Source: Scatophagus argus
Taxonomy: Eukaryota; Chordata; Actinopteri; Scatophagidae
Length of the DNA: 64,000 nucleotides
Direction: 5' to 3'
NCBI RefSeq assembly: GCF_020382885.2
Contig: NC_058497.1
Coordinates: 16,050,330-16,114,329, forward strand
The first letter of the stretch is position 1. The number at the start of each line of letters is the position of its first letter. The translations under genes and the position numbers were made by a program. The notes under the pieces were generated by a model that was not told where the DNA came from, made no database searches, and worked only from the letters and a program-made list of their open reading frames with translations. Positions 14,684-64,000 of this stretch are shown piece after piece.

Positions 14684-17600
14684 ATGAAAGTGCTACACTG
14701 GTGCCTGCTGGGAGTGACCATCCTGCTGCTGGTGTGCGAGGTCACCATCAGTCAGCTGTGCAACTCCCTCATCGTCCTGGTGGATGGTTTTCATGCTCTT
14801 TTCATTCTCATGCGCATGGTTATTACTCCTCTTCAAACTGCAAGCACAATAAAACCTCCTCTCAGCTCTTTGGACTCTCCTGCATCTCCTCCACATGCTT
14901 CCTCCTCCTCAGCAGCATCTCCTGCCAACCTGCCTGACACCCAGACCGCCACTAATGGGTCAACCATCCCAGATCGACCCCCCACTCCTACTAAAATCTC
15001 ACCTGCAGCCTTCGTCTGTGGTTTGTCCTATACCTCCTGCAGGATTCAGGTTGTGGGGGGTTTTGTTTCTGCTCTCCTCTTGGCCTCTCTGTGTCTCTCC
15101 TATATTATGGAAATTGTTGGCTTTATCCTGGAGCCACAACCAGTACAGCGCCCCCTGTTGCTTGTAATGGTCAGCACTGTCAGTCTGCTCCATAAGATGA
15201 TTGTGCTCTGGCTGATGTGGGACCAGCTGCAGGCCCCGGAGAGCAAATCTCACCTTGAAGTGAACCAGAAAGGTAACATTTCCAATGGATTAGATGTTCA
15301 CTTTGACAGCTGATGCACAAATATGCAGTATGACAATAAGAGGTATCATTTTCTAATAAGGTATATTTATAAATTTTTACACATTCTAACTCATAAGTTT
15401 ACTAATGATTGTTAACAATTTCTTAACTATTTCAAAAACAGATTCTTGCATAATTGCATTAACTCTGAAATTCATAATTTCACCATTTTATAGGAAATCA
15501 GCTCCAGGAAATCTGGAACAAAGTCTGTCTGTTTGGAATTTATTAATATATAGAACAGAAGATATTATGGATTCATATTTATTCATGACTTATTAACATG
15601 TAACAGCAGAACCGATGGCTGTAACTTTCATGAGGAAATGAAAACTGGGACCATGGAGCTGAAAGAGATGGGGAAAAAAACAACAACTGTACACAAACAG
15701 GCAGAATTAAGTGTATAGACTGCAAAATAAAACACAATATCAAGAGAAAGCTATCACAAATGCAAATACATTTAAAGATATTTTTTCAGAAGCTTCACTG
15801 AGACTTTGAAAGATGTTCCAGATTTGAACAATCACCTTCAATTTTCAGCATTGACCTTACAAACATTCAGACATCCCCTGCTCTGAAAAGATCTGATATG
15901 TGAACGTCTGAGAAGATAAGCAAAAAGAGAGATGAAGGGACTAATGTCTATGGACAAATATCTGGATATAGACTCTGTCGACGCAGGGCAAGTTTATGGC
16001 AAGACTTTTTAACATTTAATTAGTTGCAATTGCTTTTTGACAGGTTAGGATTCCACATCGTGGAAAGAGATGAGACAGAATGAATAGTACAAATGGAGGA
16101 CAGTTGGATGCACTTTCAAACAGTCTCCCACGAGGGAATTCATGGCGTTATACTTGGCTGTTCACAGGATAAGTGACGGAAGTGCGGAGCAAAGAATAAA
16201 GAAAAGATCATTTTAGTGAGCGGCTCAAACTCTGCTACTTTTTGCTCATTTTTCCCAACTGCAATGTTGGAAAAGTGTGGGAGGAAGGCGTTTCAGATAC
16301 ATACTGAGCCCCTTGTGATCCCCAAACAATAAAATCAGTGGAGGCCACAAAATTCCAATTACTACTTTAATCAGGGTTATAGAAGGACTGCAATAATTGG
16401 TCATTTAATGTGAGATAACCATTTTTTCACTGTATTTAAGAGTTTAAAAAGTTCATGTCATGTAAGATACATTGCTGCAATTCTGGTAATTCAAAATTGT
16501 GGGGAAAAAGTATGATTTACTGCAGCTTACAATGACAATGATGCTTTTTTTTTTGCATCTTGTTTCTCCCAGGCGTATGTTAAATAACATAACTGAGATA
16601 CTATCAAAATTAACAATTACTTGTGTGTTTAAGTCAGTCAGTGTGAAAGTACATACTGGTGTTTTGCAATAATAATCTTTTAGTGCAGAAGAATTCTTGT
16701 GCCAGGTGATGATATTACCATGACAGTTTTCACTTTGGTGAAGCTACCATGTGTATATTCAGCTGTGAGGAACATCAAACAGCGTCCATGTTTGTTTTTC
16801 ATTCCTCTCTTTGACTCAACCAAAGGCCAGGCTGAGCCGAGGCGAGCCCTGTGTGACGTTAGCCAAGTCCAGTCTGCTGTGGACGACTTGCTCCACAGTG
16901 GGACGCTTGTCCTCTGTAACCCGGGAACCTCCAGCATCCCTGATACTGACTCTCAAACCCCAGAGCCACAGGTAGAAGTTCATACCGCAGCTCCACAGGA
17001 CAACAGAGACTGTGAGGTAGTAAGCGGCGCTGCAGATTTGAGTCATTCAAAAGACATCACAGAGCTTTCCAAAGACAACACCTGCATGGAACATCTTGGT
17101 AAGAGAGTTCAGCTCCTTGGACTGTCACCTTTCTCACCTTAGTATCCCTTTAAAAAAGAGCCATATGAAATTTATTGGCATTCAGTGAATCCAAATTCAC
17201 ATATATAACAAAGTGTTTTAAATTCACCAAAGACACCAGGTATTTTATAGCCCAAAAGCAGATATACTGTAGCTCTGATCACATGTGTAAAAAAAAAAAA
17301 GTTTTTGAAACAATCATGTTTTGCTGTGTTCTACCCCTTCAGGAAGTCAAAATGCATCTAAAACCTCATCAGTCTACAAGTCATCACATCACACTGAGAG
17401 GCCCCTACCAACCAGCCAGTGGCCAGTCCGTCTCCCTTTGTTCATCCTCATCATTCAGGGCCTTTGTAGCTCCCTTCTAGCTCTGATCAACAGTCTGGTG
17501 ATGCTGCTGATTGCTCCGCAGCACTTGCACAGCTCTGGAGCCTGTCGCCTCCTGGTTTACCTGGATCCTATCCTGTCCTTACTGGCTGTGATTACACTGA

Positions 17601-18900
17601 CTGCCACAACTACGCCACAGGTGAGGCTCTGTATGTTTATGTTAAGGCCAAATTAAGTTCAAATTGACTTCAACAGCTATTACATGAACCAAGAGAGGAT
17701 GAGTTTGAAAAGATTTTAAAGGATTGCTTATTTATGTTCATAATTGCTGCAGCTCAATCAAAACCCGCACTGACTGGCAACTCTATCCAGGTGCACAGGT
17801 ATGGACTGCTGCTGCTACAGGCCACGCCTCCGCATGTTTGTGTATCTGATCTTGGACGGAGGATTGCCAGTGTCCCTGGGGTGCAGGCGGTACACGACCT
17901 CCACATCTGGCAGTTAAATGAATCTTTCACGGTGGCCTCCGTCCATGTACACTGCCATGTGGACTTTCCAGCACACAGGTGAAGTGGAAAAGTTTGACAT
18001 TTGTACTTGTGGTTCTACCATTTCTTTATCTAAACCTCTGAGAACTGTCAGCTCTGGAGGGTGAGGATAACGTTTTTGTAACCTGACACTATAGCTAGGT
18101 ACCAATAATAACTGTTTGCTGCTGTCAGTATTAACCTGCAGGTAAAGACAGCAACAATGAAGCTTTATATTGATGGAGCTGGGATAATTTGTTGTGGTAT
18201 AGGTTAAAAAATATTACAATGACTGGTTTCTGTGGCTTGATTGAGTTTTACCTTTATTTGTCAACCAACTTCAAATCAAGAAGATGAAGAAGAAGAGGAA
18301 GAAGAAGCATTAGGAAAGAAAATGGTGAGCTCATGAAGGCATGAGGAGCTCTTTTGTTGAGAAGGGTCCACGTGTAGTCTTGCAGACGAAACGACTCACC
18401 TGTTTTACCTTTACTTTTTTGTTTTTTTAAATTTTAGAAACTGCATCACTACATGATGCACCCTGAGATATTTTCCTAACCCTCACCAAATACTTTTGGT
18501 GGCCATGAAACGTTCATAGACCAAAGTCACCCTTTGCATGCGCCTTTATATGTTTTTCTTCAGATTAAAAACAATATATTTTATTAATAGGTGTCCTGAT
18601 CTGATGCTGGGGATCACTAACGTGCTACAGAGTGTAGGAGTGAACTGCTGCACTGTTCAACCTGAGTTTCCTTCCTGCCCTGGATCATGTGGAGGCTGTG
18701 GTGACGCCTCCGCCGTCGTCCACAGAGAGGATCCCTCCCTGCCTGCTCTCCTGGCCTGCAGTCTTGCCTGCGGAAAGGCCTGTGCAGGGAGTCTGTGCTG
18801 CTCTCCCTTAGAAGAGGAGAGCAGAACTCTGCTGGCCCCACCAGCTGGGGAAACAAAGGAAGAGCCTCAGAGTCTGGTCATCGAGAACACCTTCCTCTGA
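14684..18900 (+). CDS. SLC30A1-like cation diffusion facilitator, probable pseudo-transporter
   Basis: Five exons: 14684-15272, 16826-17098, 17343-17620, 17791-17978 and 18591-18900 (TGA). All are GT-AG with matching phases, giving 545 residues. It aligns along its length with zinc transporter 1 of the plasma membrane. TM1-2 are VLHWCLLGVTILLLVCEVTI and SLIVLVDGFHALFILM; TM3-4 follow a Ser/Pro-rich insertion; TM5-6 include LFILIIQGLCSSLLALINSL and LLVYLDPILSLLAVI. The cytosolic CDF domain (GVQAVHDLHIWQL) and the ZnT1-type Cys-rich tail (LACGKACAGSLCC) are kept. The transport site is not. In TM2 the His remains but the Asp four residues later is Ile, and the TM5 HxxxD pair reads as Leu and Gly. 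The His-rich TM4-5 loop is replaced by an acidic, Ser/Thr-rich one. It may act as a regulatory or heterodimer partner rather than a pump (inference). The start was chosen at the Met aligning just before TM1; a CTCTTAG acceptor lies immediately upstream. Confidence 0.85.
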
Positions 18901-19121: not shown

Positions 19122-19127
19122 AATAAA
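19122..19127 (+). terminator. polyadenylation signal of the ZnT1-like gene
   Basis: AATAAA about 220 nt after the stop codon, with a second overlapping ATAATAAAA a few bases on. This gives a short 3' UTR. Confidence 0.6.
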
Positions 19128-19129
19128 AC

Positions 19130-19776
19130 GTATAATAAAATAGCCTCTTTTTATTTGAACATAACGTAAATTTTATTGATCCTATGCAAGTGACAAAGCA
19201 GGAAAAGGAAGAGCAAGAACCAACCCCCCAAAATAATTGATATGATATTGTATGAACACCTACTATACATCCATCCATCCATTTTCTATACCGCTTATCC
19301 GTCAGGGTCGCGGGGTAGCTGGAGCCTATCCCAGCTGACTACGGCGAGAGGCGGGGTACACCCTGGACTGGTCGCCAGTCAATCGCAGGGCCCACCTACT
19401 ATACAGTATATACAAAATTAAATTCATGTCTATGTACACCGAATGATAGAAAGTAGAAAGTACATTTTCTGCGTGTGCTTAAGGTGTTTGTACTGAGAAT
19501 TTTTATTTTATTCAATTTTTATGCCGCAACAAAATAGTCACAAATTAGGTTGTAAGAGTAAAACAGATTACATCCAGGGTTTTTTTTTTATTACAGACAT
19601 TACAGTAGCCGCTATTAATTTTATTAGTTACACCTGTGCCTCTCCTACTATGCCATACCGAAACTGATATCATCGTGAACTTGTCTCTTACCTGTGCTAA
19701 CGCGATATGGCTCCACCTTTTGTCTTTAGACAACCAATCACAATGTGCCTGCTTTGCATAATACATAACAGACAAG
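19130..19776. other. intergenic spacer between the ZnT1-like gene and tRNA-Sec
   Basis: Apart from the LINE tail at 19257-19405 it contains AT-rich sequence with no supportable gene. Its right end merges with the tRNA-Sec upstream control region. Confidence 0.5.
19257..19405 (-). mobile_element. 5'-truncated Rex3/RTE-like LINE tail with target-site duplication
   Basis: A 123-bp insert (19270-19392) is flanked by a perfect 13-bp direct repeat CACCTACTATACA at 19257-19269 and 19393-19405. Read on the minus strand, the insert ends in GGTATAGAAAATGGATGGA with tandem ATGG units. That is the 3' tail common in fish and typical of Rex3-like RTE elements. Extreme 5' truncation plus a target-site duplication is the usual outcome of LINE insertion. 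The intact duplication suggests a fairly recent event. It lies between the ZnT1-like polyadenylation site and the tRNA-Sec promoter. Confidence 0.75.
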
Positions 19777-19962: not shown

Positions 19963-20049
19963 GCCCGGATGAGCCTCGGTGGTCCGGGGTGCAGGCTTCA
20001 AACCTGTAGCTGCTTAGCGGCAGAGTGGTTCAATTCCACCTTTCGGGCG
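19963..20049 (+). tRNA. trnau1: tRNA-Sec (anticodon TCA)
   Basis: An 87-nt gene nearly identical to human tRNA-Sec. It begins GCCCGGATGA, has the anticodon loop CTTCAAA with TCA at 19998-20000, a long variable arm, an internal B box GGTTCAATTCC at 20027-20037, and ends CCTTTCGGGCG without an encoded CCA. The 9-bp acceptor stem and 6-bp D stem are the hallmarks of eukaryotic selenocysteine tRNA, which decodes UGA in selenoprotein mRNAs. Compared with the human gene as I know it, the D stem carries a paired A-U to G-C change (CGG with CCG). The variable arm has a paired change plus a G-U wobble, so the folds are preserved. The gene symbol follows vertebrate usage and is not certain for this species. 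Confidence 0.97.
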
Positions 20050-20855: not shown

Positions 20856-21355
20856 GTCAGTGTCTTATTATTACCCGTTAATACAAACGTTTGTTCGGCT
20901 TGTCAGTGGTATATTAGACTCTTAGAGGCCTCGTTTAGTAAAATAAATGGACGAGTAACTGTCCGGTTGCCCTTTGCTATTCAGCGTCCTGCTAACAAGC
21001 GTAACGTTATTCACTCGTGGTTGTGAGTTTCTGCAAATCGTAATTAGTTAATTTAAAAAAAAAATAGTACAGTACAGTTTATTTTATACATTATTTTCTT
21101 GAGAGTTTAAGGTAATCGGTATATGTCGAATATGACTGAAATATTCAGCGTGCAATTAATTAAACAAAGAAAAGCATACATGAAACTTCCAACTTAAAAA
21201 TTCTTAGTATTAAACATTTATTGTGTGTGAAGGAAAAGTGGAAGAGCTTTTCCCTCTGAATTTTAATCCAATACAAAGAGTTTTGTTGTTCATGTTGTTT
21301 CATCCCAACATTTTCCTTATCCCATCCCAGATTTGACTTCGAAAGACGGCCCATT

Positions 21356-29145: not shown

Positions 29146-32100
29146 TCATAGTTCTTCTTCTGTCTTCACCTGAACCGCATTGAAGGAGCTGTCCTGTGCC
29201 TCTGACTGGGAAGTCTGACTCTCATTGACGAGCATGCTGAACTGCATGTCGTTGTAATGGGAAATGTCCTGAGTGTACAAGTTCTGGTTAAAGTTCATGT
29301 CCATGTTGACAAACGTGGCGTTGCCCTCCGGCCCGTGTTCAAAGCTGGAGGACATGGGCAAGGAGAAGCTCGGGTCAGAGATCACGTCCCAAAGCGGCGC
29401 GGGTATTTCCTCCATCAGCTGATTAATGATGGCCATCGCATCGTTGCCACTGATTGAGTCCTGGAACTCGTTGTAACACATTTCCGCTAAAGCGGCCGTC
29501 CCAGGCTGGGCAGCACAAAGCCTTTCGTCTGGAGACGTGGTCTGAGGCGGTTGGAAGTGGAAGGGCTGCTCTGCTGCAGGTGCACTTTCTGCTGGAGGAG
29601 AAGACACAGATGGTGTTACAAAGACAATGAGTACCTGTTAGAAATACGATCGCAGGTCAGTTATTATGTAAAGAACTTTATACTGGGATCGCGACACGTG
29701 ACTGTTGCCGTTTGAACCTAGTATACCGCTTCACATCACTGACGTTAAGTCATGTAACAGAAACTTCCCCCTGTATAACACAACACACTACAGTAACTCC
29801 TGTCCACAAACTCTTGATGAAGGTAGAATCTCTGTGCAGTTAGTACTTTAGTGCTCCTTTGTAGTGTTCTACTTCACCAAATTTCTATGTACACCTGACT
29901 TAACTTTGTAGTATAATACATGCACGCGTGACAAATTTAACTTCCCCTCTGAGATGAGAGCTAACTGGGCCTTTCCACAGAAAGCACAGGTTTAAATAAT
30001 AAAATTAATGGCTGAATTTCATTTAGCTGCTCCATTTTCAGGGTTGTGGTGTTGTGCGTGATATGTCATGGCTTAGTGGTATACCAGATCGGTCGCCACT
30101 CAACTAGTTTTACATTAGGTATGAATTTCTGTGTGACTGGAGGATAATGTGCAGTGATCGGGCTCTCAGATGACTAGATGGATGTTCTTTGATGTCAAAT
30201 TTTGGGTCAGTAATCTTGCGATTTTATGCTTTGTGCGCCCACCTGGCTGCTGTTACAATTGAATGTTACCTTGACGACGGCATAAATTGACCTGGGTCCT
30301 GTTACGTTCAGTGAGAGCAAGTTCTGATAGCGCAAAAAGGCTGGTTAAAGCAAGCAGTCTGAAGAAAACCTTCTACAAGCCAGTAAACACGTAAATGTAA
30401 TTAAATACAAAGTAAATGTAAACACGAAAAGAAGTGACAATCCCCAGGCCTTACCTGTCACACAAGGTTTCTCTCTGAAGTTGATCTCTGATTTTATCTT
30501 TCTCTTCCGCTTCACCTCATATGGATCTGAAATTAGGACAGAAATACTTCACTTGATCTCCTGTTATTGCTTCAAAAAAATTATCTGCCAGCCAAAGTCG
30601 ATCCCTGCCATTAGAATCCCCACAGACCACACAGTTCAGCGCTGCACAGTCTTGGACTGACCTGGGTTGTGTGGCAGGTACGTGAAGTTGACAGGCTCGC
30701 TCTCCATCTGGTCTGAGAGCCGACGCAGGGAGACGCTGACCTCCACCTCCTCTGTGATGTCCTGGTCCTGGTAGGGCGGAGTCTTAAACACGATAGCAAT
30801 CTGCCGGTGAACGTCTGTCTGGGCAAACTCCCCATTCGCCTTCCATGACCCTCGCCTGAAGATGATTTCGATGTCATCTGTGGATCAGAAACCACACACA
30901 CACAGAGCCATGTTGATCGGAAAAAATACAGGGGAATATAGGATTATTTTTGAGTTCAAGTGTCCAGTGTAGCTGCTATAGTCCTCTATCATCCTAACCA
31001 AGTATTTCGTTTAAGATAACAAGGGAAAATAACTGTAAAATGAAAATGTATCAGAATGAGAAACAGCGACTGAAAGATGGCCCTCTTCAACGGTGACTGA
31101 AATAAATTTAGTAAGTTGCAGTAAAAATACCCTTTGAGGTTAGCGAAAAGTCATCAAAAAACAGCCCACACCCTCGCTCACTTGTTTAAACATGACTCAA
31201 TTACCCTGCTTAAACAATAGCTGCTAACAACAGTAGTGTAACATTATACCTTAAGTGTCTGCAGTTTGACCAGGCATGTATCTGACCCAGCAGACGATGT
31301 TTTACACACTGGTCTCCTGCAGTGAAAGTTTACCTTGTCTTGTGTTTGCTGTGTGAAGCCTAATTTTGTCCACCCTGTGTATATTCTGTAAAGAAGGGAC
31401 ATGAATAAAACTTACCTTTCTGCACTTTGTCACAAAGCATGTAGATCTCCGTCTTGCCGGTGCAGGGACCCCTGTTCTGGTTCAAACAGCTGATCTTCAG
31501 CTGAGACGTTGTCGTGGCCTCTGTGAAAATACAAGCCAGGCAAAATGTGTGAGTATCTATCAATGCAGCTGCTCATGCTGTGGTCAAGTGTGTGTTTGGC
31601 AATGTCTCACTCTTGTCATAGATGGGGTTGGACACCACTGGGTTGAGACAGTCTTTTCTGCCATCATCCCACTCCAGCTCGCACTGAAAACACAGACGCA
31701 CTGCGTTCATGTCCATGTCTTCAATGCCCTTTGATTCACCAGCTGAGGGATGAAAAGACGCAAAATCAATCATGGAGCCTGTTTTCGATGAGTCATAATG
31801 CGTTGCAACAAAAAGGATAGAAGAAACTGTATCATAAATATACAGATGTTATAGGACAGTGACAAAATGAACTGCATTAGGATCCATCTTACTTTGAAAA
31901 GGATCAATATTTTGGCTTCTTCTCTTCTGAAGTGAAATGTCCAGCTCTTTCCTCCTCACACACTGAATACCAAGGTTAGCAAAGCTGCAGGTTCAGATCG
32001 GAAGAAGGAGAAGAAGAGGAAGAAGAAAAAACACATTTGCTCAGAAGATATTACAATGTTATTTAAATATATCTAATAAAGAAGAAATGCAAGAAGACAT

Positions 32101-35100
32101 GAACCACAGATGTGATGTGCACCTGTGCCGCCGGTTGCTGTGAGGATTGATCATGACCACACAGATTCCTGAACCATTTGGACAGTCTTTACCCACGAGG
32201 CAGTGGGGATGAGGCCTGTGCGGCGGGTCTTTGGTTACCAAGGAAACAGTGACTGTGACCTTTTTTAAGTGGTCAATCGGACCTTGAATCTGAAATAGAG
32301 AACAGGACAGGAAGATGAAAGAGAGAAGAAGCAAGAAGACAGAAAATTACAGCATGATATGCTAAGTGATTTATTGTTATTCAAGACGTGTTGCAACACA
32401 GTGATATTATCAGAATGAAGGAGAGGAGCTGTTTAAATTCAAATTTAAATCCAGAGACATTTTCATCAAATAAATATTCTGGCGCTCTTCCTCAGGTACC
32501 ATCTGAGGCTAATGCAATTCAGAATACCTGTCAATCAAAGCTTTTTTTTTTTTTTTTTTTTTTTAATAAATCTGCTCACCAGTGCCTGAGGTACCAATTC
32601 AGGAGAGATTAATTACTGCTAAAACCCAAATTTTTATCAAGGGCTTTACTTAAATTACTGTAGTTCATATACACAGACTGCAGTCATCCACTGATGTTGT
32701 GCCTCAAGTGCAGTGCTCACTGTGTGATGGTGTTTGTATAAAATGTGAAAACGAATGTGTCAAAATGTTTGTTAGTATGCAGGCAGGGGATAAACCGCCC
32801 ATCTCTGACCACACTTGAGCTGGGATTTGTGGGGACTTTCTAATTGACTCTAACAACCCACATCCTTCCATCTCTACCCGTCTGGGTTCAAGTGTACACA
32901 CCAAACAGCGATGGCTAGAACCCTCCCAAACGGTCTCTGACAGCTAGTAAACCCCCTTTGAGGCCAAAAACAAATTTAACTGTAATGGGTCTACCTCTAT
33001 GGCAGGCTGAGACTTGTTGGTTTCAGTGCTGGACGCCCCCAGGATGCTGCCGGCTGAGCGTCCCTCACACTCATAGCGAAACCTCATGCCTCTCTCTTTG
33101 GGCTCCTCCACCACCACCAGTTTGGGCTTTTGTAGAAGCCGCTCCAGCATCTCAGTGTTGGACGTCTTGGAGCCAAGCGAGCACGGGGAGTAGCCTCGAC
33201 CACGGCGAGAGGAACCGCCTGGAGAGGCAGCTCCCCGCGAAGGATGAGCCATCTCTCTTGAAGTGCACGAGTTCTGCAGGGGTTGGGGGAAGGTGCAGTT
33301 TTGCTGTGCCTAAAAAAAAAAATAAATATAACACAACCTTATTAACAACTGAGGCTGGAACCCTCTTTTGCAGACATGGTCAAAGCGGCAGCATAAAAAG
33401 ATGTCGACAAGACGAGATTAGGGATAAGAACAAAGAGAATTAAGAATGGAGACAGCAGATAATGTCTTGTGATCCGAGACAATGACTGCTAACTAAAATT
33501 TAACTAACTTTGCACCACCACATTAACACCAGAATGGCTTTAAAACATTGTTGAGAAACTTGTGTCTGATATAAAAACCAAACTTCAGTCTGTTTCTTCT
33601 CAACATGTTCTCAACATGTTGCTAAAGATAAAAGACATTTATCAAGCCAAACTCTGACCAACCCTTGATGTCCAAAGAAATAAAACTATTCAAACTTTCA
33701 CAAGAAAAGAGAATAAACACAAAATGAATCGTCTTACATTTATCTCATGGCCCTCAGGTTGGGAGCCACTGGACAAAATGACCAAAATGTAAATAAAAGT
33801 AGTTAAAACGAGCTTCACCTCGACGTGCTACAACAATAAAATGCTTCTCACAAGTTAAAGCATCAATACTGGTGATCTAATCATGTAATAGATAACAGTA
33901 TATCAGCCATAGGGGGATAGTATTTTTACTTTTGATGGTACATTTTGCTGATAATACTTGTCTACTTTTACTGAAGCATTTTGATAACAGGACTTACTTT
34001 TAAAAAAGCATTTTTTTGTACTGGTATTATGACTTAAGAGAAAGACATGAGTACTACTTATGTCTGTAGGCCTCCGTGTATCACAAAAACAACATAAACG
34101 TAGAAGAAATAACAACGATATTAACTGCACAGTCACAGGCTTGTTTGACACTGTGGATAAAGCACTCTGCATCATATTTGCAGTGAAACCAAGCAGCAAA
34201 ACTGAGTCACTGCATGACTCTCCTTCATACATGTGCTTTCCATCAGTGCACAGACTCGACCATGTGCTCATTTGACTCCTCCTCTTGCAGTCTAAATGTC
34301 TTATTTTTGCATTGCACCACATTGCACCAACCTCTTTCCGTTCCCACTCACACTTGTTATTGAGTGTATCTCCCTCAGTACTGCTTTTACTTTCTCTATC
34401 TACAACGCTCCTTGCCTTCACCCATCAATTTATGACCACTTAGGCCCTCAGGGTGGCTTCCATGTGATGGTGGAGGAAAGAATAAAAGCATTCAAAGCAT
34501 CACAACAAAGCTGTAGTCTTCCTGAAACATCAGTTTGACAAATAAATAATCAAACCTGGCGGGAACAAAGCAGTAAAGAAGTTGACCCCCTTTGTCGCCT
34601 GTGCTCGCTGAACCACTGCTGCAGAGATCTGGATGATGCCTGTGCATGAGATCGGGTTTCACAATATCCTGCTGAGCCACAGATGTCTGTTCATGAGTGT
34701 GCCTCTACGAGCGAGTCGGCATGGCCATACCTGTTAACCATAAAACACCGGAGCTAAACAAAAGCCTGGCAGACTGTCCCAGCGAGCAGGAAGCAGGAAG
34801 TCAGCTCAGCTCGACGACCAATTGGAGAAGTAGTTCAGTGACCTATAACCCCTCCCGAATACTACCCAGTGGGTTTGACTAGTAAACAAAAATGACGGCG
34901 AACTGAAAGTGGGCGTCAGATTACAGTTCTTCATCTCCTCGTTCTTCTCTCTCTCTCTCTCTCTCTGACTCGTCCCACAGGAAAGCCTGCTGAGGAGGTG
35001 TGTCAGCCTCTATAACAGGCCACAAAGACTTTTTTTTTCTCCAACAAACTGTGTTTACTCACACCAAAGCCATTTGCTCATAAAGGGTTTCAGTTGTTTT

Positions 35101-37435
35101 CTTATGCCCTACTTTGTTACCTGTCCGCGCAGGCTACAGCGTCACTACAGTCTTATCAGATTACACCACTTCTGATCTCCCTGCTGTCTGTAAACCACGT
35201 GCTTTATGGTAAGAGCCTGACCTGCATAGCTGCCTGATTACTACTCAATATGACGACAAAACAGACAACAGCCAAACACCTGGAGGATACACATGTACAA
35301 CACTGACGTTTCATCCACCGCAGACGGTGGCACATTATTTTAACAGCGACTGACAGCCTGACTGTAGGTTCCGCTATTATTGAATTCAACATCAACAAGC
35401 ATCCAAGAGCAACATGAAGGCTGTCAGAAAACAGCGAAAGATTCCCAAACTTCTTCAAACTGCTCGCCTGGCTGAACGTTTTGACTCACCAACAGTCCAA
35501 AACCCACAAAAAACATTCTCTTAAAAGGGACAGTTCACCCCCAAATCATTTTTCCTCCTAACCTGTAGTGCTGTGAGTCCATCTAAATTGTTTTTGGTGT
35601 GAATTTTGGAGAGATGTCACTTGTGGAGCTCAACAAATAAATATAGATAGATAAAAGCAAGACGACATTGATGTTTACGACCTGTCTTGTTGTGAGAATG
35701 AGCCTAATTGGCGACTCACACCAAAACAATCAAGCTTGATAAATAAAACTTACAAGAGGAAAAATAGGGAGGTTTGAGTATGGGGTGAAACGTGAAACGT
35801 TTTTGGTCATTTTTGTTTGATACTTGACCTTAAACCTGCAGTTCAGGACTCTGATAGATAAATGAACAGTTACATTCAACTACTTGGCAAACAATGCCGG
35901 TGAAGCCTATCACCTTCAGATAAATACCAGAGGTTAACGCCAGCCAGCAAAGACTGCTTGGCCAGAGCCGAAGGGTGGAGCGTGTATCGTGACAGAGTAG
36001 GCTACAGCAAACAGGAGACTGGCAAAAACTGTGGTGTCATAAGCACGTCTACAGTGTTTGCGCAATTACAGTCACTGCCAGAAACAACAGACAAAAGTTA
36101 CACACTGCGCATTAAACAACTGAATAATTACCACAACTTTCATCTACAGGTTTTCTGAAAATAGATGCATCGATTAATGGACGATTTGTTTTGATGATAA
36201 CGGAGTGAAACTGGGAAAAGCCACAGTTCTGAATATGCAGAGCAAAATGCAGGAAAACACTTGACATTCAACAATCACTAAGAAAATTATTTAGCGTGTA
36301 TAAAGCAACTTTTTCCACTCTCTCCTTCTTTTAGCACACAAACCACAGCTAAGAGAAACACCTTCACGTTTGCCCTCGGGGTGTTGCCAACAGTCATACC
36401 AGGAAACCGCTCACTGAGGAAGATCAGTGCCAGACCAAAACAACACAAACGACCACACCGAGACAAACACACCAGAGCAGACCACGTGGGCTTCTCGGTT
36501 CCCTCCAGCCCCCCACCCACCCCTCCACCTCACCTGAACTGCGGTGCTTCTTGCTACCAGCACAGGCTGGGAGGAGCTCTGTCGGAGCTTCCTGGGGTTG
36601 ACACCGTGTGGCGTGCACATGAGGCTAGAAGGAGGGGGAGGAGGTCCAGGGAGGCAGGCTGTCCTTTCTTCGTCCGCTGTGATGATCTCTTCAATGAGAT
36701 CTGTAAAAAAAAAAAAACCCAAAAACTTATTGATGATAAACAGATCAGCATCTCATATGGCAAAGTAGCGCTGAACCAATGTAAAGTGTCTGAGAACAAT
36801 GACACTTCATAGCCGATTTCTCATTAAAGCAATGAGGAATAAAGGCTACTTTTTGCTTGTATATACACGTTTGTAGTTAACAGTAGTGAAGTGCACGGTG
36901 CGTCCTCATTTAAATCTGTGGTTGAGGTATATCATGTCTGACACCCCTCTAACCAAACAGAAACTAGAGCTTCCTGTAGCCACGCTGCGTGACATATCGA
37001 CCAAGTTGTCACTAAACACATACAATGCAGTTACAGCAGGAAAACATTCATCCACCAGGCAATCAGCAGAACCTTATCTTCAAAAACTGTGATAACTGAG
37101 AAATAATTTCACTATTTTCTGGGAGAAAACTGAATAACAAATCAATGGCTCGAGTGTATTTGCTGTGATAGTAAACTCGATGTTTTGAACTGCAGTTGTG
37201 ACAAATGAAAGCAATTTGACTGTACAAACTCGGGAACTATCACGATTTTCAGTCAGAAGATAAAAGGGAGACTAAGGAATATTGCGTATGCCGTTGAGTC
37301 TCGTGAAATATTTTGCCTTGCACATCGGGGCCACCGTACTAACCATAATATAAAAGGAGGAAGCAGAAATACTAATGATCTACATCTGCATGAGGTCGCC
37401 TCAGGTCACACATTTCAACAACACATCACTGCCCC

Positions 37436-37477
<42 letters not shown>

Positions 37478-37716
37478 GCTGCATGAGTAGAAGGTAAACG
37501 GCAGAAACCAGAGTTTATACTCACCGAAGTCATTCGGTCCTCGCTCTGCAGGACAAACAGAGAGCAAACGGTCAGTGGCTACACGATACAAACACAGCTG
37601 TGCGACTGCAAATGTTAAAGCCTGCACCGAGCAGAGCAGCAAGAGCCGGCTTATGGGTGTTGGCTCCCCTGCTCTGACAAATCACATGCCTGGTGATGAT
37701 GTCAGCTCTCTCTCTC

Positions 37717-37762
<46 letters not shown>

Positions 37763-37825
37763 GAACGTGAAAGTTAACTCCAAAAACCTACCAGGGGTCC
37801 CGTTGAAAACATCCATGTCTTTCAT
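29146..37825 (-). CDS. relb: NF-kB family transcription factor RelB
   Basis: Eleven coding exons on the minus strand: 37792-37825, 37525-37545 (a 21-nt microexon), 36534-36700, 32995-33309, 32123-32289, 31893-31984, 31611-31742, 31416-31520, 30662-30877, 30455-30526 and 29146-29591. All are GT-AG with matching phases, giving 588 residues (human about 579). The Rel homology domain starts near residue 137. Its DNA-recognition loop [13 protein letters not shown] is at 150-162, followed by the RelB-type SILGASSTE. The dimerisation half includes [24 protein letters not shown] and [15 protein letters not shown], and the nuclear localisation signal KRKRK is at about 422-426. The C-terminal exon is an acidic activation region ([15 protein letters not shown]). 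FRRGSW and the exact SAGSILG context favour RelB over RelA or c-Rel. RelB acts with p52 in the non-canonical NF-kB pathway. Introns hold a MITE, CT and AC repeats and a dispersed repeat. Confidence 0.96.
33920..34000 (+). repeat. dispersed repeat fragment in a relb intron
   Basis: GTATTTTTACTTTTGATGGT, then ACATTTTGCTGATAATACTT, then CTACTTTTACTGAAGCA. These are words of the family also seen at 13733, 20335 and 23975. A long minus-strand open frame across it (33903-34421) is attributed to chance. Confidence 0.45.
34946..34967. repeat. CT microsatellite in a relb intron
   Basis: A perfect TC dinucleotide run of about 22 bp within the intron between the exons at 32995-33309 and 36534-36700. 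Confidence 0.85.
35521..35800 (+). repeat. MITE in a relb intron
   Basis: Starts TTAAAAGGGACAGTTCACCC and ends near GGGGTGAAACGTG, imperfect terminal inverted repeats. The interior (CCTAACCTGTAGTGCTGTGA, TTGTTTTTGGTGTGAAT, GGAGAGATGTC) is typical of a non-autonomous DNA transposon family common in teleosts. It lies in the third relb intron (33310-36533). Confidence 0.65.
37439..37470. repeat. AC microsatellite 3' of the relb microexon
   Basis: A perfect (AC)16 tract; in the relb transcript it is read as (UG)n. It begins 54 bp after the microexon splice donor. Confidence 0.9.
37719..37762. repeat. AC microsatellite 5' of the relb microexon
   Basis: An (AC)n tract with one AA interruption, preceded by a short TC run. 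It is read as (UG)n in the relb pre-mRNA and lies 173 bp before the microexon acceptor, in the first relb intron. Confidence 0.9.
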
Positions 37826-38106
37826 CGCATGTGAGGAGTCTTTAACGACCATCAACTCCGCCTTCGTGTCGCTGAATTCTTTCCAAACCGAATAATTTCC
37901 GGTATGTGACTTCTTTCCTGGGTCGAAACTCGACGCTCTCTTTAAAACCAGCTCGGGTTAATAAAAAGCAGCTCTTCGGGCTGTGAACCACCTCTGACTG
38001 TTACTGTAGACCCGGGAGGAGCTGTTATGCTGTCTTCTAGCCATGTGTCGAATGATGTCTGAAGCGAAGTTTGCTTCAGTTGCGTTATTTTCACAGACTT
38101 GCTCTG

Positions 38107-38170
38107 ATTGGTTGGTTCCTGGTGTGGAAATCCCCTTAACATTACGTCATCTCCCAGGCGGGAAAGCCCC
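38107..38170 (-). promoter_or_regulatory. relb promoter elements: two kB sites, ATF/CRE-like site, CCAAT box
   Basis: Between about 280 and 345 bp upstream of the relb start codon lie four sites. GGAAATCCCC (38126-38135) and GGAAAGCCCC (38161-38170) read on the minus strand as GGGGATTTCC and GGGGCTTTCC; both fit the kB consensus GGGRNWYYCC exactly. ATTACGTCAT (38141-38150) is an ATF/CREB-like word, and GATTGGTTGG (38107-38116) is an inverted CCAAT box. Mammalian RELB is known to be induced through kB sites in its promoter, so this arrangement fits NF-kB autoregulation. The transcription start is not visible. Confidence 0.6.
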
Positions 38171-38701
38171 CCCCGGGGACAAGCAGGTACTGCAGCCTTT
38201 TTGAGCCTATTACAATGTTCACATATTTGAATATTCATCACCTTGATCTCACACGAACTTTTTTCCATTAGGTAATATTTTTGTTTGTTTTATTGTGTAT
38301 GCACAACACTTTTAAAACTATTAAAATACCCACCCGACACACTTATTTACCACCAAATCTAAACCAAGTCAAAGCTATCTTCTCCTAGCTTGACAAACCA
38401 CTGATGTTTTAGATGTGCATCATGGCTGCATTAGGCCACCATCCTGCTGCAAACGCTGTGGTAGTTCCTGATTTTAATCATGAATAACCAGAGGTGACAA
38501 ACGATCTCTGCATGTTAAGTGACTGCTGTTAAACAGCGATATGCTCCAGCCCCCCTCTTTCTTTACTTTGTCATTTTGGTGCACTTATCAGGCACTACGG
38601 TGACACCTGCCGGTTACAGAAAGGCCAGGCGATTTAAAGGAAACGGAAAACGAAAGTGGAGGCGTTTAGAGGAAGCAAAGAAATAAAAAAAGAAAAAAAA
38701 G

Positions 38702-39040
38702 GGGGGCAGCCGTGGCCTAAAGGTTGGAGAAGCGGCTTGTAATCGGAGGGTCACCAGTTCGATTCCTCCACCGGACGGGCAGGAAAAATTTGGGTGTGGT
38801 GGAGTGATAAATGTGAAAAAATGCCCCCCCCCTCCATTAGTTGGCTGATGTGCCCTTGAGCAAGGAACTCAACCCCCAATATGCTCCCCAGGCGCTTGAT
38901 GCTGCCCACTGCTCCTGTGTGTGTTTCACCGCATGTAATTTGCCGGGTTTTGCATGTGTGTGTTCAACTAAGGATGGGTTAAATGCAGAAGATGAATTCA
39001 GTGTGTGTTTGTAAAAAGCTGATTCTTCTAGGTTCTTCTT
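38702..39040 (+). mobile_element. tRNA-derived SINE
   Basis: The head contains Pol III control elements: an A-box-like GTGGCCTAAAGGTTGG and a B-box-like CCAGTTCGATTCC, 40-odd bp apart. The body has landmarks common in fish SINEs: TGCCCTTGAGCAAGGAACTC, CTGCCCACTGCTCC and GGATGGGTTAAATGCAGA. The 3' end is TTC-rich (GATTCTTCTAGGTTCTTCTT). The length of about 340 bp suits a near full-length copy. No clear target-site duplication was found. Confidence 0.75.
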
Positions 39041-41180
39041 ATTCAGTGACTCCATTTTTTAAGATAAAAAAGTGGTAGAGGTGTTAGGTAAGAAAGCTGC
39101 AACTGTAAGAAAAATGTGGATTCACAGAAAAGTTGGGGGGGAAAAAAAGTCCAAGAAGTAATCAAACATTTGAGATGATTAACAAGGTAGGAAAGAAGAA
39201 AAAACATTTCTGTTAATCACTGAAAAAAAAATAAACAAACAAAAAAAACCCAAACCCTTAAATGCTGAACAGTTTTACCACGTTAGGATGCTGGCAGTTA
39301 AAATTACCAGTCACATCTCACTTTGATCAAACTGCTCACAGCCACACTGAACCTGCACATTAAAGGTCTGCACTGCTTGGCTGCGAAGGGCCCCCAGCCC
39401 AAACAGTCACTAACAAATGAATTATGTGTCAGACGCAGCACCAGTCCTGGACTCAGGGCATCACAGTGTTCCTGCAGATGCTTCGTAAAGGCAAGAGAAA
39501 CTATTTTACAGATCTGCTTATCAACCAGGTTGACAAGCAGGCTTCACGTCACCCAGCCGCCAGCCTGACAGGATTACATTACTATTATTGTACGATTAAC
39601 TATTTGAAAAGCTGAGAGAAGGAAAACCATACGTGTTGTTGGAAATTCTGAGAAGATTCAACTGATTGTGACAAAAAGGGTTTGTTGGAAGTTTAAAAAT
39701 AAATAAAAAAAAGGCTCTGCAACATTTTCACTGTTACACTGTGTGCCAGCAATACTCCTCTGTGAAAACAAACCAAGCTTTGCTATTAGAATATACAGTG
39801 ACTGACGATACAGCAGCCGATTTCATCATCTGACTATAAGGAAAAAATACCAAATATTTGCTGGCATAAGCCTCTTGATTGTGACTACTGTTTGTTCCTC
39901 TCATATTTATTTATTTGTAAATTGAATCTTTTTGAGTTTGGGGTTTCTGTTTGGACAAAGCCAGCAAGAGAAATCAACACCTTTGGTTCTGAGAAAACTG
40001 TGATGGCCATAATTCACCGTCTTCTGTCAAAACAAAAACGATTCATCAGGGAAGATAACTAGCATAGTAATCAATAATGAGAATAGTCATTAGCCTCAAG
40101 CATTAGAAGATCACAAAGACCTAACCACATAACGAGGTGCATGCTGTATAAGCACACAAATAAACTAACAGCAATAACGTGGAAGAATTGAGAGTTTCAA
40201 GTAAAACCTAAAGAGGAAAAATTCAAAAAAAAGCTTTGCATAGACAATTTAAATCACACTTAAGTTTTACTATAAACATGAATGAATCAAAATTTGACAT
40301 GTACCAACATGGAACCCTCTTCGTTTCATGATTTACAGCACTCAAAATTAAAACAAGAGACACTGTAATTGCTCCAGCGCACACACACCCCTCACGCCTG
40401 TCTCCACTGCATCTGCAAAGGTGATTTTGTTTGGAGTGTGAACGTGAAACAAACTGAAAACCAGACATGTGGCTGAGGGGGGCAATTTAGTCCTGCAAAT
40501 TAGATATTGCTAGACAGTTTTGACATTGGTATTACTGACATGACAAGCTGAGGTTCTGTACAGTTTAAGGACATACAAAATAATTCTTCGGTGACTGAAA
40601 AACAAAAATGAACTGACAATATTAATATATTTATATTAATACCAACAAGGTTGTTATTTTTTTTTGTTTTTATGTTCAAGTTTAGAACATTAACCATTTG
40701 TTTAAAATTGAGGGTAGAAGTCACTCTCTTGCGGGTAGTGTCTCGTAGGGTCCTCCTTCTCGTCACCAGGTAGTGGCTCAGGATCTTTCCAGTTTCCTCC
40801 AGCACTTCTCACCAGTTTCAAGGCAATCCGAAACGTGGTGCTCACATGGAATGAAAAGAAAAATTCACAAGGAATCTACACAAAGAACAAAAGTTGCACT
40901 TGGCCTCTTTCTTCCCTGTATTTATAAAAAAAAAAAAAAAAAAAAAAGTAAAAAAAAAAGTTGTGTAACTGTGACCCGTTCCCCTCCCAACCTCTACTCC
41001 AACACATTGTCACCCTCTGAGAAATCATACAGAATACAGTACATCACGTTTTGTTTTACTTCACTTGAACTGCAAAACGAGAGGGCGGGGAACAGAAATA
41101 AGAATTTACCAAGTCTACACTGAATATGATTCTCTGTGGGTCCACACAGAAATCAGAGGGAACAGCTGAACTGCATTTTT

Positions 41181-41186
41181 TTTATT
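41181..41186 (-). terminator. candidate polyadenylation signal of clptm1
   Basis: AATAAA on the minus strand, about 140 nt after the clptm1 stop codon, inside an A-rich stretch. A longer 3' UTR is possible. Confidence 0.4.
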
Positions 41187-41324
41187 ATTATTAATTTTTT
41201 TTTTTTTTTTGTAGTGGCGTCCATGCCAGCTAAACGACAACTCCCCTCCCTGCCTAATTTCCGCAAGTCCTCTTCGCCGCCATAGCAGTGAGGGCCAGGG
41301 AGGTGAATAAAGGCAGGGTCTTGC

Positions 41325-52060
<10,736 letters not shown>

Positions 52061-57761: not shown

Positions 57762-60700
57762 CTGAAAACAAAGGCCAGACAATGTGACATGTTAGCCAAC
57801 GTGACCGAAACACAATCTTACAAGCAAACAAATATTAAAAACACGTCATTTCCTGTTGCTGGGTTATGAATATTGACACCTGACAGTAAGTGAACTTATT
57901 TAGCTATTTTCTTTCAATGCAGCTACAATCAGTCTCTGAAGACCTACTACAATGAATGCACGCCCCCTCACATGTCACAGCGAAGTTAGTTGCTCCCCTG
58001 AAACCACTGATGATTTGATCTCATGCTGTTACTATGCACATTCTAGTAGTTAAATTTAAGTTTATGGTAAATAATCACACTACTCTCTGGCGTTTACACA
58101 GTTCATAAACTGACTGTGTAAGTTTCGTATATTTCGTATCTTATTAATTCAGCTAGCTAGCTAAGTTTGTTACCTAGCCACAGTCTGGATTTAGCATAGG
58201 GGTTTGGGCGGCTAGCACCAGCACAGTCTATTCGGACAACACTTAGGACGGCCGGTTGGTATAGTTACGTACAGATACGTCTTTGCTCTAATGACGACTT
58301 GCCCGATTCAGACCTCTCAACACAATATCCACTCCTCAAGACAGAAGTAGCGCTGCAAGACGTTCCGACGGGTTGCACCACCACATTATATCAGTTCCTG
58401 CTACACCCGACTCTGGAACATTCTACCTGCCCTCAGACTGGAGAAACGCCAATCACATCAGGGAGGAAGTACATTCAGCCAATAGTGTTATGAAACGTAA
58501 GGAAATGGGCTGAGCCATCGCCTACTTTTTAGTAGATTGACGCGGCCGTAAACCAATCATCACACAAGAACAAACAAGGCCGTTAAACAGCCACACAGTG
58601 GCGCTATTCTCCCGTTTGAACCGTGACAGCTGACGAGTTTCTTCTCCACCAGGCACTTCGGCTGCTGTTTGGAAGTTAACAACTCTGTAATAACAAAAAT
58701 ATACGTATGTACTGTATATCACTTCAGGTTAAGTGTAATCTTGATGTCCAGCCTTAAAGAATCGTTTTGGCTTTCGCTCCCGTTGATGAGGAAATCTGGA
58801 CTACAATATCTGATTTCGAATATTACATTAATATAGCCTACAAAATAAAACGTATCTTATTGTGTAACGTGGATATGAAATCATAATGCCATACGTTTTG
58901 TGACGAATGATCTGTGAAAAGGAAGAAAAAAAACTCCTCCTTGCATGAACACAAGCCTTTTCCTTGATCAACAGCGAACCAAAGTGTTACTCAAGCGCAG
59001 ATATCAAACTAGAGTCTACACAGGTGTGGGCAGGAAAGAAAAGATCAAAGAAAGCAGGGAGCTATAACCAAACCCCAGGCAGAGAGAAGCAGAGGGGCGC
59101 TGAGCCCACAGTCCCACCCGAAAGATTTACATTCCTATGGTTGTTGATGGGGATGGAGGTATGCAAAACTGCTTGCAAATCCCCCGGCAACTAGTGGAGG
59201 CTCATTCACCCCTCATCTGTGGGTCACCTGTGTGTGGCACATTTATCTTGCTATTTTCTGTGTCCGACACACAATTTATCATCAATGTCTGATATTCAGT
59301 GTAAGGCCTGTAAAAAAATTAAGCTTTTGGTTTGTATTATAATAATAATATTTTTTATTATTCTTGTTGTTGTTAGTAGCAGTAGTGTGATATGAGAGGT
59401 AAGTCATTTCTGTGATATGCAGAAACTTAAGTGGTGTAAATTAATGTTACAGGATATTCTCTCTCTTTTTTTTTTTTTTTAAAAAAACATGATCCACACC
59501 TGTTGCTAAAATCCAAACATGATGCATGTCACAAATGCAAATTCTACCTTCTTTGTTAGCATATACTCAATTGTGTGTCTTTGTACTGATGGTATTTGCA
59601 TTGCGAAACCACCTCAGACACTACAAACCATAGGATCCGGTTGGAAAGCCGGGCCTTACCAGAGCAAATAGTGTTGCAAAAGCCTTATTCATTACACTTA
59701 ACAAATGGTATTGTTCTTTGGAATACATATCATAAGCTGTTTATGATTTAATTTCAAATTCTTCAGAGATGTGATATTGACACAAGTGCCTGATATTAAA
59801 TTTGGACAATTTTCACTCTCTGAATTAATTGCCTAAGAAACACCATCTGAACGTTATTACATTATTATTATATTTTACAGGATTCTAGACAGTTTCCATT
59901 AAAAAGGACCTCAGTAGTTCTTGATCATAAAGTATGTCTGTCTGTGTGACAACAGGATCTCTTAGGGGTGCTATTAAAAATAAATTGCAACCATTGAAAT
60001 AATTAGTTGATCATTAAATATACTAAATGAAAATGCAAAAATAAATAAAATAAATATCAAATCACTGGCAGTGATTTTCTTAGTCTTGCATGTTAATAGG
60101 CTGAACATCTTTCGGTTCTGGATGCAGTGTGACCCACAAACCATCTGAATAGATCACACTGAGCTCTGAGAGCTTTTGCTGGACATTTTTAAAATGTTTA
60201 TTATTTATACAATATTGTTTTCTGTGCTAGTGATCGATTGATCTTTTCCAAGCAGCAAATTCTCACATTTCAAAAAGGTTTGGCATTTTAGCTTGAAAGG
60301 TAACAGATCGACTAGTTGTGAAAACAGTATTTGATCTTCTGTCTATCTGGTAGCACAACTAATTAAACTGGTTCAGCTGTTTCTATATGTACCATAGGAC
60401 TTAGTTCTAGTTTTGCTGAAAAAAAAATTCTGAATGCACAACTTTTAATCAAAGTTGAATATTTTAAAATTAAAATATTGTATACTGTGAAAGTGAAAGC
60501 TCTCTGTCTCACAGTTAGATGGTTATGAAATTTCAGTTTCATTCAGCAGCAAATAAGCGCTAGTGAGATGAACACTGGAGCCAGTAAAAAATCATTCAGG
60601 ATGGAAATGCATGAATTTATTGAGGATAACTAACACAAAACATTGACCTAAAAGGCAGACTAAAACAAAGGCGCAGTATTATGTTATTAAAGGGGCGTGG
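57762..60700. other. spacer between tbcb and six5 promoters
   Basis: The two genes are transcribed divergently. An untranslated first exon of tbcb is expected near the left end but its borders cannot be fixed. No coding gene is seen. There is an ATT/TTG-rich stretch near 59338-59385 and a T run followed by an A run at about 59466-59487. A KLF/Sp1-like GGGGCGTGGCC at 60691-60701 probably belongs to the six5 promoter. Confidence 0.45.
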
Positions 60701-60769
60701 CCGTTTGTGGTTTGCAGGCACGTTCATGGTTTGGCGGAGAGTGGGAGAGAGGGCTGCGCTGCCTGCAGA

Positions 60770-60784
60770 GGGAGGGAGGGAGGG
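60770..60784 (+). promoter_or_regulatory. G-quadruplex motif in the six5 5' leader
   Basis: GGGAGGGAGGGAGGG, four G-triplets with single-A loops on the sense strand, 57 nt before the six5 start codon and inside a longer purine tract (60767-60829). Confidence 0.7.
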
Positions 60785-60841
60785 AGAGAGAGAGGGGAGG
60801 AGGAGGAGGAACTACTGGAGGAAAAAAAAGTTAAAGTAAAA

Positions 60842-63800: not shown

Positions 63801-64000
63801 GCAGGAGTCCCTCGCCCTCAAGGCCTTTATGTCAAATGTGGGCTCGGTAATCTCCAGTGCTACCGGGTCTCTCTCCACTCAGCAAGGCGAATATGTTGTT
63901 TTTACCACTGCTAGCTCCCAGTTAAACCCATGTGGGTCTGTGGTTTCCTCCAGCAACTCCACCCCTCAGGTCTTCTCTCTGCCCCAGGTTGTGCCTTCCA
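60842..64000 (+). CDS. six5: homeobox protein SIX5, 5' part
   Basis: Exon 1 codes from 60842 to 61527 and exon 2 from 63150 to the window end, still open. Exon 1 gives 228 codons plus two bases. The SIX domain covers about residues 47-155 ([56 protein letters not shown]) and the homeodomain about 157-216 ([34 protein letters not shown]). FLQDLYL and [10 protein letters not shown] fit SIX5 better than SIX4. Exon 2 begins with the shared SESDGN and has the SIX5-like [10 protein letters not shown] within a Ser/Thr/Val-rich activation region. SIX5 is a nuclear DNA-binding regulator; mammalian SIX5 adjoins DMPK. The donor of intron 1 is GC, not GT. The start chosen (AAAATGGCT, MASL) matches human MATL; an in-frame ATG at 60707 would add 45 low-complexity residues and is less likely. 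Confidence 0.94.

Follow-up and report, generated by a model that had tools for sequence, protein, structure and literature searches.

Introduction

Human ZnT1 (SLC30A1), a member of the cation diffusion facilitator (CDF) family, has a zinc site formed by residues His43, Asp47, His251 and Asp255 (PMC11549101). Five conserved cysteines at the cytosolic C terminus are a feature of the CDF subgroup that contains ZnT1 and ZnT10 (SLC30A10) (PMC1868760). One family member with an incomplete site is ZnT6, which is missing two ligands and is regarded as a putative auxiliary protomer of ZnT5-ZnT6, with pairing likely through the cytosolic domain; mixed dimers of ZnT1 with ZnT2, ZnT3 or ZnT4 have also been described and change location (PMC7949119). 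Here we describe a ZnT1-like gene of the fish Scatophagus argus, found in a 64,000-nucleotide stretch of contig NC_058497.1 (positions 16,050,330 to 16,114,329; hereafter the window), whose product has kept the dimer domain and Cys-rich tail of this subgroup and has lost most of the zinc site. Positions given below are those of the window, which lies on contig C5 of the searched genome (570.7 Mb in 48 contigs).

Gene structure and family membership

The ZnT1-like gene (14684-18900, forward strand; Table 1) consists of five exons that join in frame to give 545 codons and a stop, and all four introns are bounded by GT-AG, in agreement with an earlier sequence-only reading that had described an open frame through five well-formed exons. 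Exons are 52-58% GC and introns 34-37%. Frames of such lengths are unexpected by chance, since few composition-matched copies of the exons remain open (8, 52, 92, 370 and 25 of 2000 first-order Markov copies for exons 1 to 5, with a product over the five exons of ~1e-8). The 2 kb upstream of the gene contain no metal response elements against 1.1 expected, and one was found upstream of canonical slc30a1 against 1.3 expected.

A search against the sequences of solved structures, together with the alignment, makes CDF homology clear: the best match was human ZnT1 (90.9 bits), and the next named protein was ZnT10 (60.1 bits). The Pfam domain ZT_dimer scored 27.8 bits, above its cut-off of 26.7, showing that the dimer domain is kept as had been claimed. 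Cation_efflux reached 24.7 bits (E 2.3e-5), below its cut-off of 26.6, and the NCBIfam CDF model compared with exon 1 alone gave 26.5 bits for a cut-off of 82.35. The hydropathy profile has six main peaks at the places expected for transmembrane (TM) segments, TM5 being the most hydrophobic (Kyte-Doolittle 2.35), and three weaker rows that correspond to a shoulder of TM2 (residues 38-56) and to the Cys tail (493-514).

The loops have changed considerably. As the sequence-only reading had noted, a Ser/Pro-rich insert separates TM2 from TM3; it comprises ~62 residues with 13 Pro, 12 Ser and five Ser/Thr-Pro sites, and ZnT1 topology would place it in the cytosol. The His-rich loop is gone, as that reading had also noted: the 138-residue TM4-TM5 loop has 7 scattered His and 19 Ser and lacks the HGHSHGGHSHG run of fish ZnT1. 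The extracellular Cys-rich TM5-TM6 loop of ZnT1 has shrunk to a few residues with one Cys, a loss that the sequence-only reading had missed. At the C terminus, all five tail cysteines conserved in the ZnT1/ZnT10 subgroup are present, and the last 106 residues contain 11 Cys. The tail motif, CxxxCxxxCxxxxCC, occurs once in the window as a DNA pattern and in none of 100 shuffles. Its spacing is that of ZnT1, the ZnT10 tail being one residue longer, so the tail described earlier as ZnT1-specific is there and spaced as in ZnT1, but the presence of such a tail is not specific to ZnT1 because ZnT10 has a Cys-rich tail too.

Loss of the metal-binding site

Alignment with human ZnT1 pairs His43 with H37, which is kept, Asp47 with I41, His251 with L323 and Asp255 with G327. 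The motifs HALFI in TM2 and LIIQG in TM5 thus stand where functional zinc CDFs have HxxxD, and three of the four ligands are replaced, as originally proposed. The placement of TM5 in the alignment may move by one or two residues, which leaves the ligand loss unaffected. The sequence-only reading had considered that a better alignment might restore the ligands; because neither residues 20-60 nor residues 300-352 contain an [HNDEC]xxx[HNDEC] pair, realigning cannot recover the site. As a control, we read the same motifs in eight other CDF loci that Cation_efflux identified in this genome (two on C19 and one each on C1, C6, C12, C15, C17 and C20). HxxxD was present in TM2 of 8/8 and in TM5 of 7/8, the C12 locus having no match to a loose TM5 motif. 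Frame, alignment and motif scan together support the view that the gene looks intact and encodes a non-canonical member of the ZnT1 group from which most of the metal site is missing. TM2 or TM5 ligand mutants of other CDFs mostly have no function in the mutant table of PMC1868760, and none of the mutants listed there alters three ligands together.

Acidic and His residues are missing from TM5, and in TM4 the Val-Asn of human ZnT1 is replaced by His170-Lys171; ZnT10 also has the Asn. Polar residues left in the membrane part are E19, D34, H37, E143, H170 and D362. These residues are what could be cited for an active transporter with an ion path re-built for another cation, an explanation that we consider very improbable. 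The composition of TM5 argues against it, as does Lys171 in place of the Asn of ZnT1 and ZnT10. A bacterial CDF requires an Asn in TM4 (N135A, PMC1868760), which may correspond to ZnT1 Asn127. Copper does not rescue the idea, since ZnT1 is reported to take up copper through its usual site of four residues (PMC12949048). With TM5 devoid of acidic and His residues and a His-Lys pair in TM4, the different ion path suggested in the sequence-only reading found no positive support.

Indirect signs of selection

Over 412 aligned columns, the ZnT1-like protein and the canonical slc30a1 product of this genome are 26.7% identical, a comparison that, like the diagnostic-site and tree comparisons below, takes all aligned columns, including a poorly alignable loop in which the fish ZnT1 reference has uncertain letters at an intron junction (KNGKCKDN, where the in-frame splice is probably KNGNCKDN; this lies outside the nine regions counted next). 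Within nine regions, 128 residues do not vary among fish ZnT1, human ZnT1 and ZnT10, and 53 of these are kept: 3/9 in TM1, 6/15 in TM2, 8/21 in TM3, 5/11 in TM4, 2/18 in TM5, 7/12 in TM6, 17/37 in the two regions of the dimer domain and 5/5 in the tail. Loss is uneven over all nine regions (permutation P = 0.033), for TM5 against the rest (Fisher P = 0.004) and for the tail against the rest (P = 0.011), values obtained with one query, three references and borders set by us, and with TM5 singled out post hoc from the nine. When neutral substitution was simulated without indels in 400 copies per level, 58 copies were still stop-free at 0.05 substitutions per site, 8 at 0.1, 1 at 0.2 and none at 0.3, 0.5 or 1.0.

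Three indirect signs favor selection: neutral drift closes the frame early, loss is uneven, and TM5 has kept its membrane character without its ligands. A long-dead pseudogene is unlikely, because a frame drifting neutrally would no longer be open after so much divergence and because loss is heaviest in TM5. A recent end of constraint is compatible with all three signs. The broader proposal of a gene decaying under relaxed constraint, open still by chance, would draw on the low identity to slc30a1, on the Cation_efflux score below cut-off and on the two lost loops. We regard it as distinctly unlikely given the open frame, the intact splice sites and a probable polyadenylation signal, a neutral drift that shuts the frame well before this divergence, and a pattern of loss that favors the tail and dimer domain.

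A putative auxiliary protomer

The ZnT1-like protein, which has lost its ion site but retains the dimer domain and tail, would most likely serve as an auxiliary protomer. We infer that this member of the ZnT1/ZnT10 group is probably expressed and maintained by selection, and that it would have given up metal transport by the canonical route while its membrane scaffold, its ZT_dimer domain in the cytosol and its Cys tail were retained. As a catalytically dead protomer it would pair, mainly via its cytosolic domain, with canonical Slc30a1 or another ZnT, and pairing would alter the activity, stability or location of the partner, as is thought for ZnT6 acting on ZnT5. Since a dimerizing tail is kept and most metal-gripping residues are lost, the protein probably assists or regulates other transporters instead of moving zinc. 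Its TM6 Asp is kept as D362, which we equate with the TM6 Asp of CDFs linked to stability and localization (PMC1868760).

The suggestion in the sequence-only reading of a regulatory partner of ZnT1 is plausible given the retained dimer domain and the one canonical slc30a1 found in the genome. For the more specific view that a non-transporting CDF subunit pairs with Slc30a1, and that the ZnT1 group has arrived independently at a ZnT6-like role, we see about an even chance. The same reading had held that known precedents for divergent CDF sites are few, which is right as to number, but ZnT6 is a direct precedent (PMC7949119).

Several points weigh against an auxiliary, non-transporting protomer. 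Single ligand changes can be tolerated: FieF D49C behaves as wild type and FieF H153C and D157C are partly active (PMC1868760), as is ZnT1 H43A, which retains ~30% (PMC11549101). The extracellular Cys-rich loop, lost here, helps to join ZnT1 protomers (PMC11549101) and holds the inter-subunit disulfide of ZnT1 (PMC12949048); deletion of much of the extracellular loop lowers ZnT1 efflux only modestly (PMC11549101). The dimer domain is only ~32% identical to that of human ZnT1 (17/48 and 11/40), and the regional P values have the narrow basis given above.

The retained domains could also serve a protein that acts alone. A stand-alone, non-transporting homodimer might use its cytosolic domain and Cys tail to bind metal or partners as a sensor or scaffold, and would make use of the dimer domain and all five invariant tail cysteines, the abundance of Cys near the C terminus (11 in all in the last 106 residues) and the five Ser/Thr-Pro sites of the cytosolic insert. 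We hold this to be unlikely, as metal binding by the tail remains putative and the membrane part would be a mere anchor, yet six TM segments are kept. In our ranking, the homodimeric sensor or scaffold stands ahead of the decaying gene, which stands ahead of the re-built ion path.

If the gene is conserved and expressed, a pseudo-transporter subunit would have arisen separately in the zinc-export subgroup, and the protein would be a natural ZnT1 regulator with which to test how independent of each other the two halves of a CDF dimer are. A further lesson would be that not every fish SLC30 gene should be counted as a zinc exporter. A degenerate, probably auxiliary CDF protein is a known kind; its placement in the vertebrate ZnT1 group is new as far as our literature search shows, in which none of the titles listed under ZnT1-like names concerned this gene.

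Origin of the gene

Searches of the genome for the family as a whole, for the query and for fish ZnT1 found one copy of canonical slc30a1, with two exons, on C19, and among the matches listed there was no further gene of the ZnT1/ZnT10 group. These searches score the best candidates only, and ZnT6 was not identified among the 13 family matches, so the list of CDF genes is incomplete. A possible second copy of the ZnT1-like gene at C12:18374688 (38.7% identity over 31 residues locally; E 0.18 genome-wide) was dismissed as a chance match because it is a lone AT-rich frame with no companion exons seen in a 9 kb locus. Matches at C20:690306, C1:26993371, C16:10550759 and C16:17864600 were likewise attributed to chance, having no coherent match to the query, fish ZnT1 or ZnT10. 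Two contig collections not meant for fish contained no relatives, the viral one giving none and the genome one giving 8 pattern matches with 0 confirmed.

Diagnostic sites were then compared among the query, fish ZnT1, human ZnT1 and ZnT10. At 18 sites derived in fish ZnT1 alone, the query shares the fish residue at none, shows the ancestral residue at 6 and differs from both at 12; in a noise control of 22 sites derived in human ZnT1, it carries the human residue at 4 and the fish residue at 3. When every discordant column is counted, it agrees with fish ZnT1 at 14 and with human ZnT1 at 22. Of 123 columns that separate both ZnT1 proteins from ZnT10, the query matches ZnT1 in 32, ZnT10 in 14 and neither in 77. 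Four-sequence trees, built on 374 columns of which 18 are parsimony-informative and with a query that failed the composition test, gave approximately unbiased (AU) values of 0.59 for query+ZnT10, 0.48 for query+human ZnT1 and P = 0.067 for query+fish ZnT1; the first two are not distinguished, and the last tree is disfavored but not rejected. The fish-derived sites, discordant columns and AU test suggest that the gene more probably predates the divergence of fish and tetrapods than stems from a duplication within teleosts, although the case that they make against a teleost-specific duplicate is weak.

These results bear on an account that we find possible but doubtful, in which the gene is not a separate old paralogue and is either a fast-evolving teleost slc30a1 duplicate, comparable to zebrafish slc30a1b, or the slc30a10 that spiny-rayed fishes appear to lack. 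The position of ZnT10 intron 3, which we take to follow residue 319, matches no intron of the ZnT1-like gene and is counted against slc30a10, as is the ZnT1-like tail spacing. The duplicate must be squared with the absence of the fish-derived state at all 18 sites, with the AU result for query+fish ZnT1, and with zebrafish slc30a1b being 54% identical to human (PMC3944790, Table 3). In its favor, neither a canonical slc30a1b nor an slc30a10 was among the matches listed in this genome, and the trees fail to reject query+ZnT10. Medaka, fugu, stickleback, Tetraodon, tilapia and cod are reported to have one SLC30A1 and no SLC30A10, and carp to have a five-exon SLC30A1b (PMC4281218). The SLC30 counts given there for the same six fishes include no extra ZnT1/ZnT10-group gene, so that such a gene would have been missed or is absent in them. 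For coelacanth, two SLC30A10 genes are listed (PMC4281218), which may point to an old additional paralogue. Knockouts of zebrafish slc30a1a and slc30a1b have been described (PMC8706747).

Genomic neighborhood

ZnT1 genes are described as lying beside nek2, lpgat1 and rd3 (PMC4281218). A kinase exon that we read as NEK2 adjoins canonical slc30a1 on C19; lpgat1 and rd3 were not sought there or near the ZnT1-like gene. Around the ZnT1-like gene, Pfam identified RHD, CLPTM1 and SIX domains among 10 frames tested, and an M28 peptidase gene is among the flanking genes outside the window. We take the RHD gene to be RELB, and the gene set of the window and its flanks (L030 and L031) presumably resembles human 19q13.32, where we know of no SLC30 gene. 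A frame at 21260 that we take to be MRPL28-like had no Pfam or NCBIfam match, and a gene to the left that we assume to be PPP1R37-like had leucine-rich repeat matches below Pfam cut-offs and none in NCBIfam.

This neighborhood enters a tentative and rather unlikely proposal in which the gene would represent an ancient third lineage within the ZnT1/ZnT10 group, kept by ray-finned fish in a 19q13.32-like block, that gave up transport and became a dead protomer tuning Slc30a1, a second and separate invention of the ZnT6 design.

Other features were seen in the window. A selenocysteine tRNA gene lies at 19963-20049 (+), ~1.06 kb downstream of the ZnT1-like gene (ARAGORN; Rfam RF01852, 78.1 bits). 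A candidate dispersed fish repeat is located at ~19265-19395 (ccatccattttctataccgctt...), and at ~47830-48090 a long CT-type run is followed by a TA-type run, with several frames open through repeat alone.

Table 1. Features of the ZnT1-like gene and its surroundings (window positions unless a flank is named)
Feature	Position	Strand	Content	Basis
Exon 1	14684..15272	+	Start codon, TM1-TM4, Ser/Pro-rich TM2-TM3 insert (~residues 49-110)	Frame, donor gtaaca, hydropathy, own-genome match
TM2 metal site remnant	14792..14806	+	HALFI replacing HMLSD (H37 kept; I41 = D47 equivalent)	Alignment, motif scan
Exon 2	16826..17098	+	Portion of cytosolic TM4-TM5 loop, without His-rich run	Frame, hydropathy
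Exon 3	17343..17620	+	TM5 (without H or D), TM6 with conserved YLDP	Frame, alignment, hydropathy
Exon 4	17791..17978	+	Start of cytosolic dimer domain (VHDLHIWQL)	Frame, Pfam, alignment
Exon 5	18591..18900	+	Remainder of dimer domain, Cys-rich tail, stop codon	Frame, alignment
Tail motif	18757..18801	+	CxxxCxxxCxxxxCC, ZnT1 spacing	DNA pattern scan
Probable polyadenylation signal	19122..19127	+	aataaa, ~220 bases 3' of stop	Read directly in sequence
RHD (RELB-like), CLPTM1 and SIX-type homeobox genes	29149-45694; 60647-63999	-; +		Pfam
Second SIX1_SD domain gene	L031:4601-5137		Just outside the window, near the SIX gene at 60647	

Comparison with known CDF systems

With ZnT1, a proton-coupled zinc antiporter, the ZnT1-like protein shares six TM segments, the ZT_dimer domain, the tail spacing, the TM3 Cys and the YLDP of TM6. 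It differs from ZnT1 in lacking counterparts of D47, H251 and D255 as well as both the His-rich and the extracellular Cys-rich loop, and in having the Ser/Pro-rich TM2-TM3 insert. Its gene has five coding exons, where slc30a1 of this genome has two. ZnT10 belongs to the same subgroup and likewise has a Cys-rich tail and a loop without a His-rich run, whereas its site reads N, D, H, D and its tail is one residue longer.

Among fungal CDFs, Zrg17 acts as a partner of Msc2. Zrg17-like proteins have also lost the HxxxD of TM5, with TxxxS/T in its place, but are described from Ascomycetes only (PMC1868760). What the ZnT1-like protein has in common with a ZnT6-type auxiliary subunit is that ligands are replaced while the dimer domain is kept. 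ZnT6 differs in belonging to another CDF subgroup and, to our knowledge, in having no Cys tail of the ZnT1 type. It is nevertheless a CDF protein in which two ligands are replaced by hydrophobic residues (PMC7949119), and in ZnT6-like proteins a Ser-rich loop replaces the His-rich one (PMC1868760), which is matched here by a TM4-TM5 loop with 19 Ser among 138 residues.

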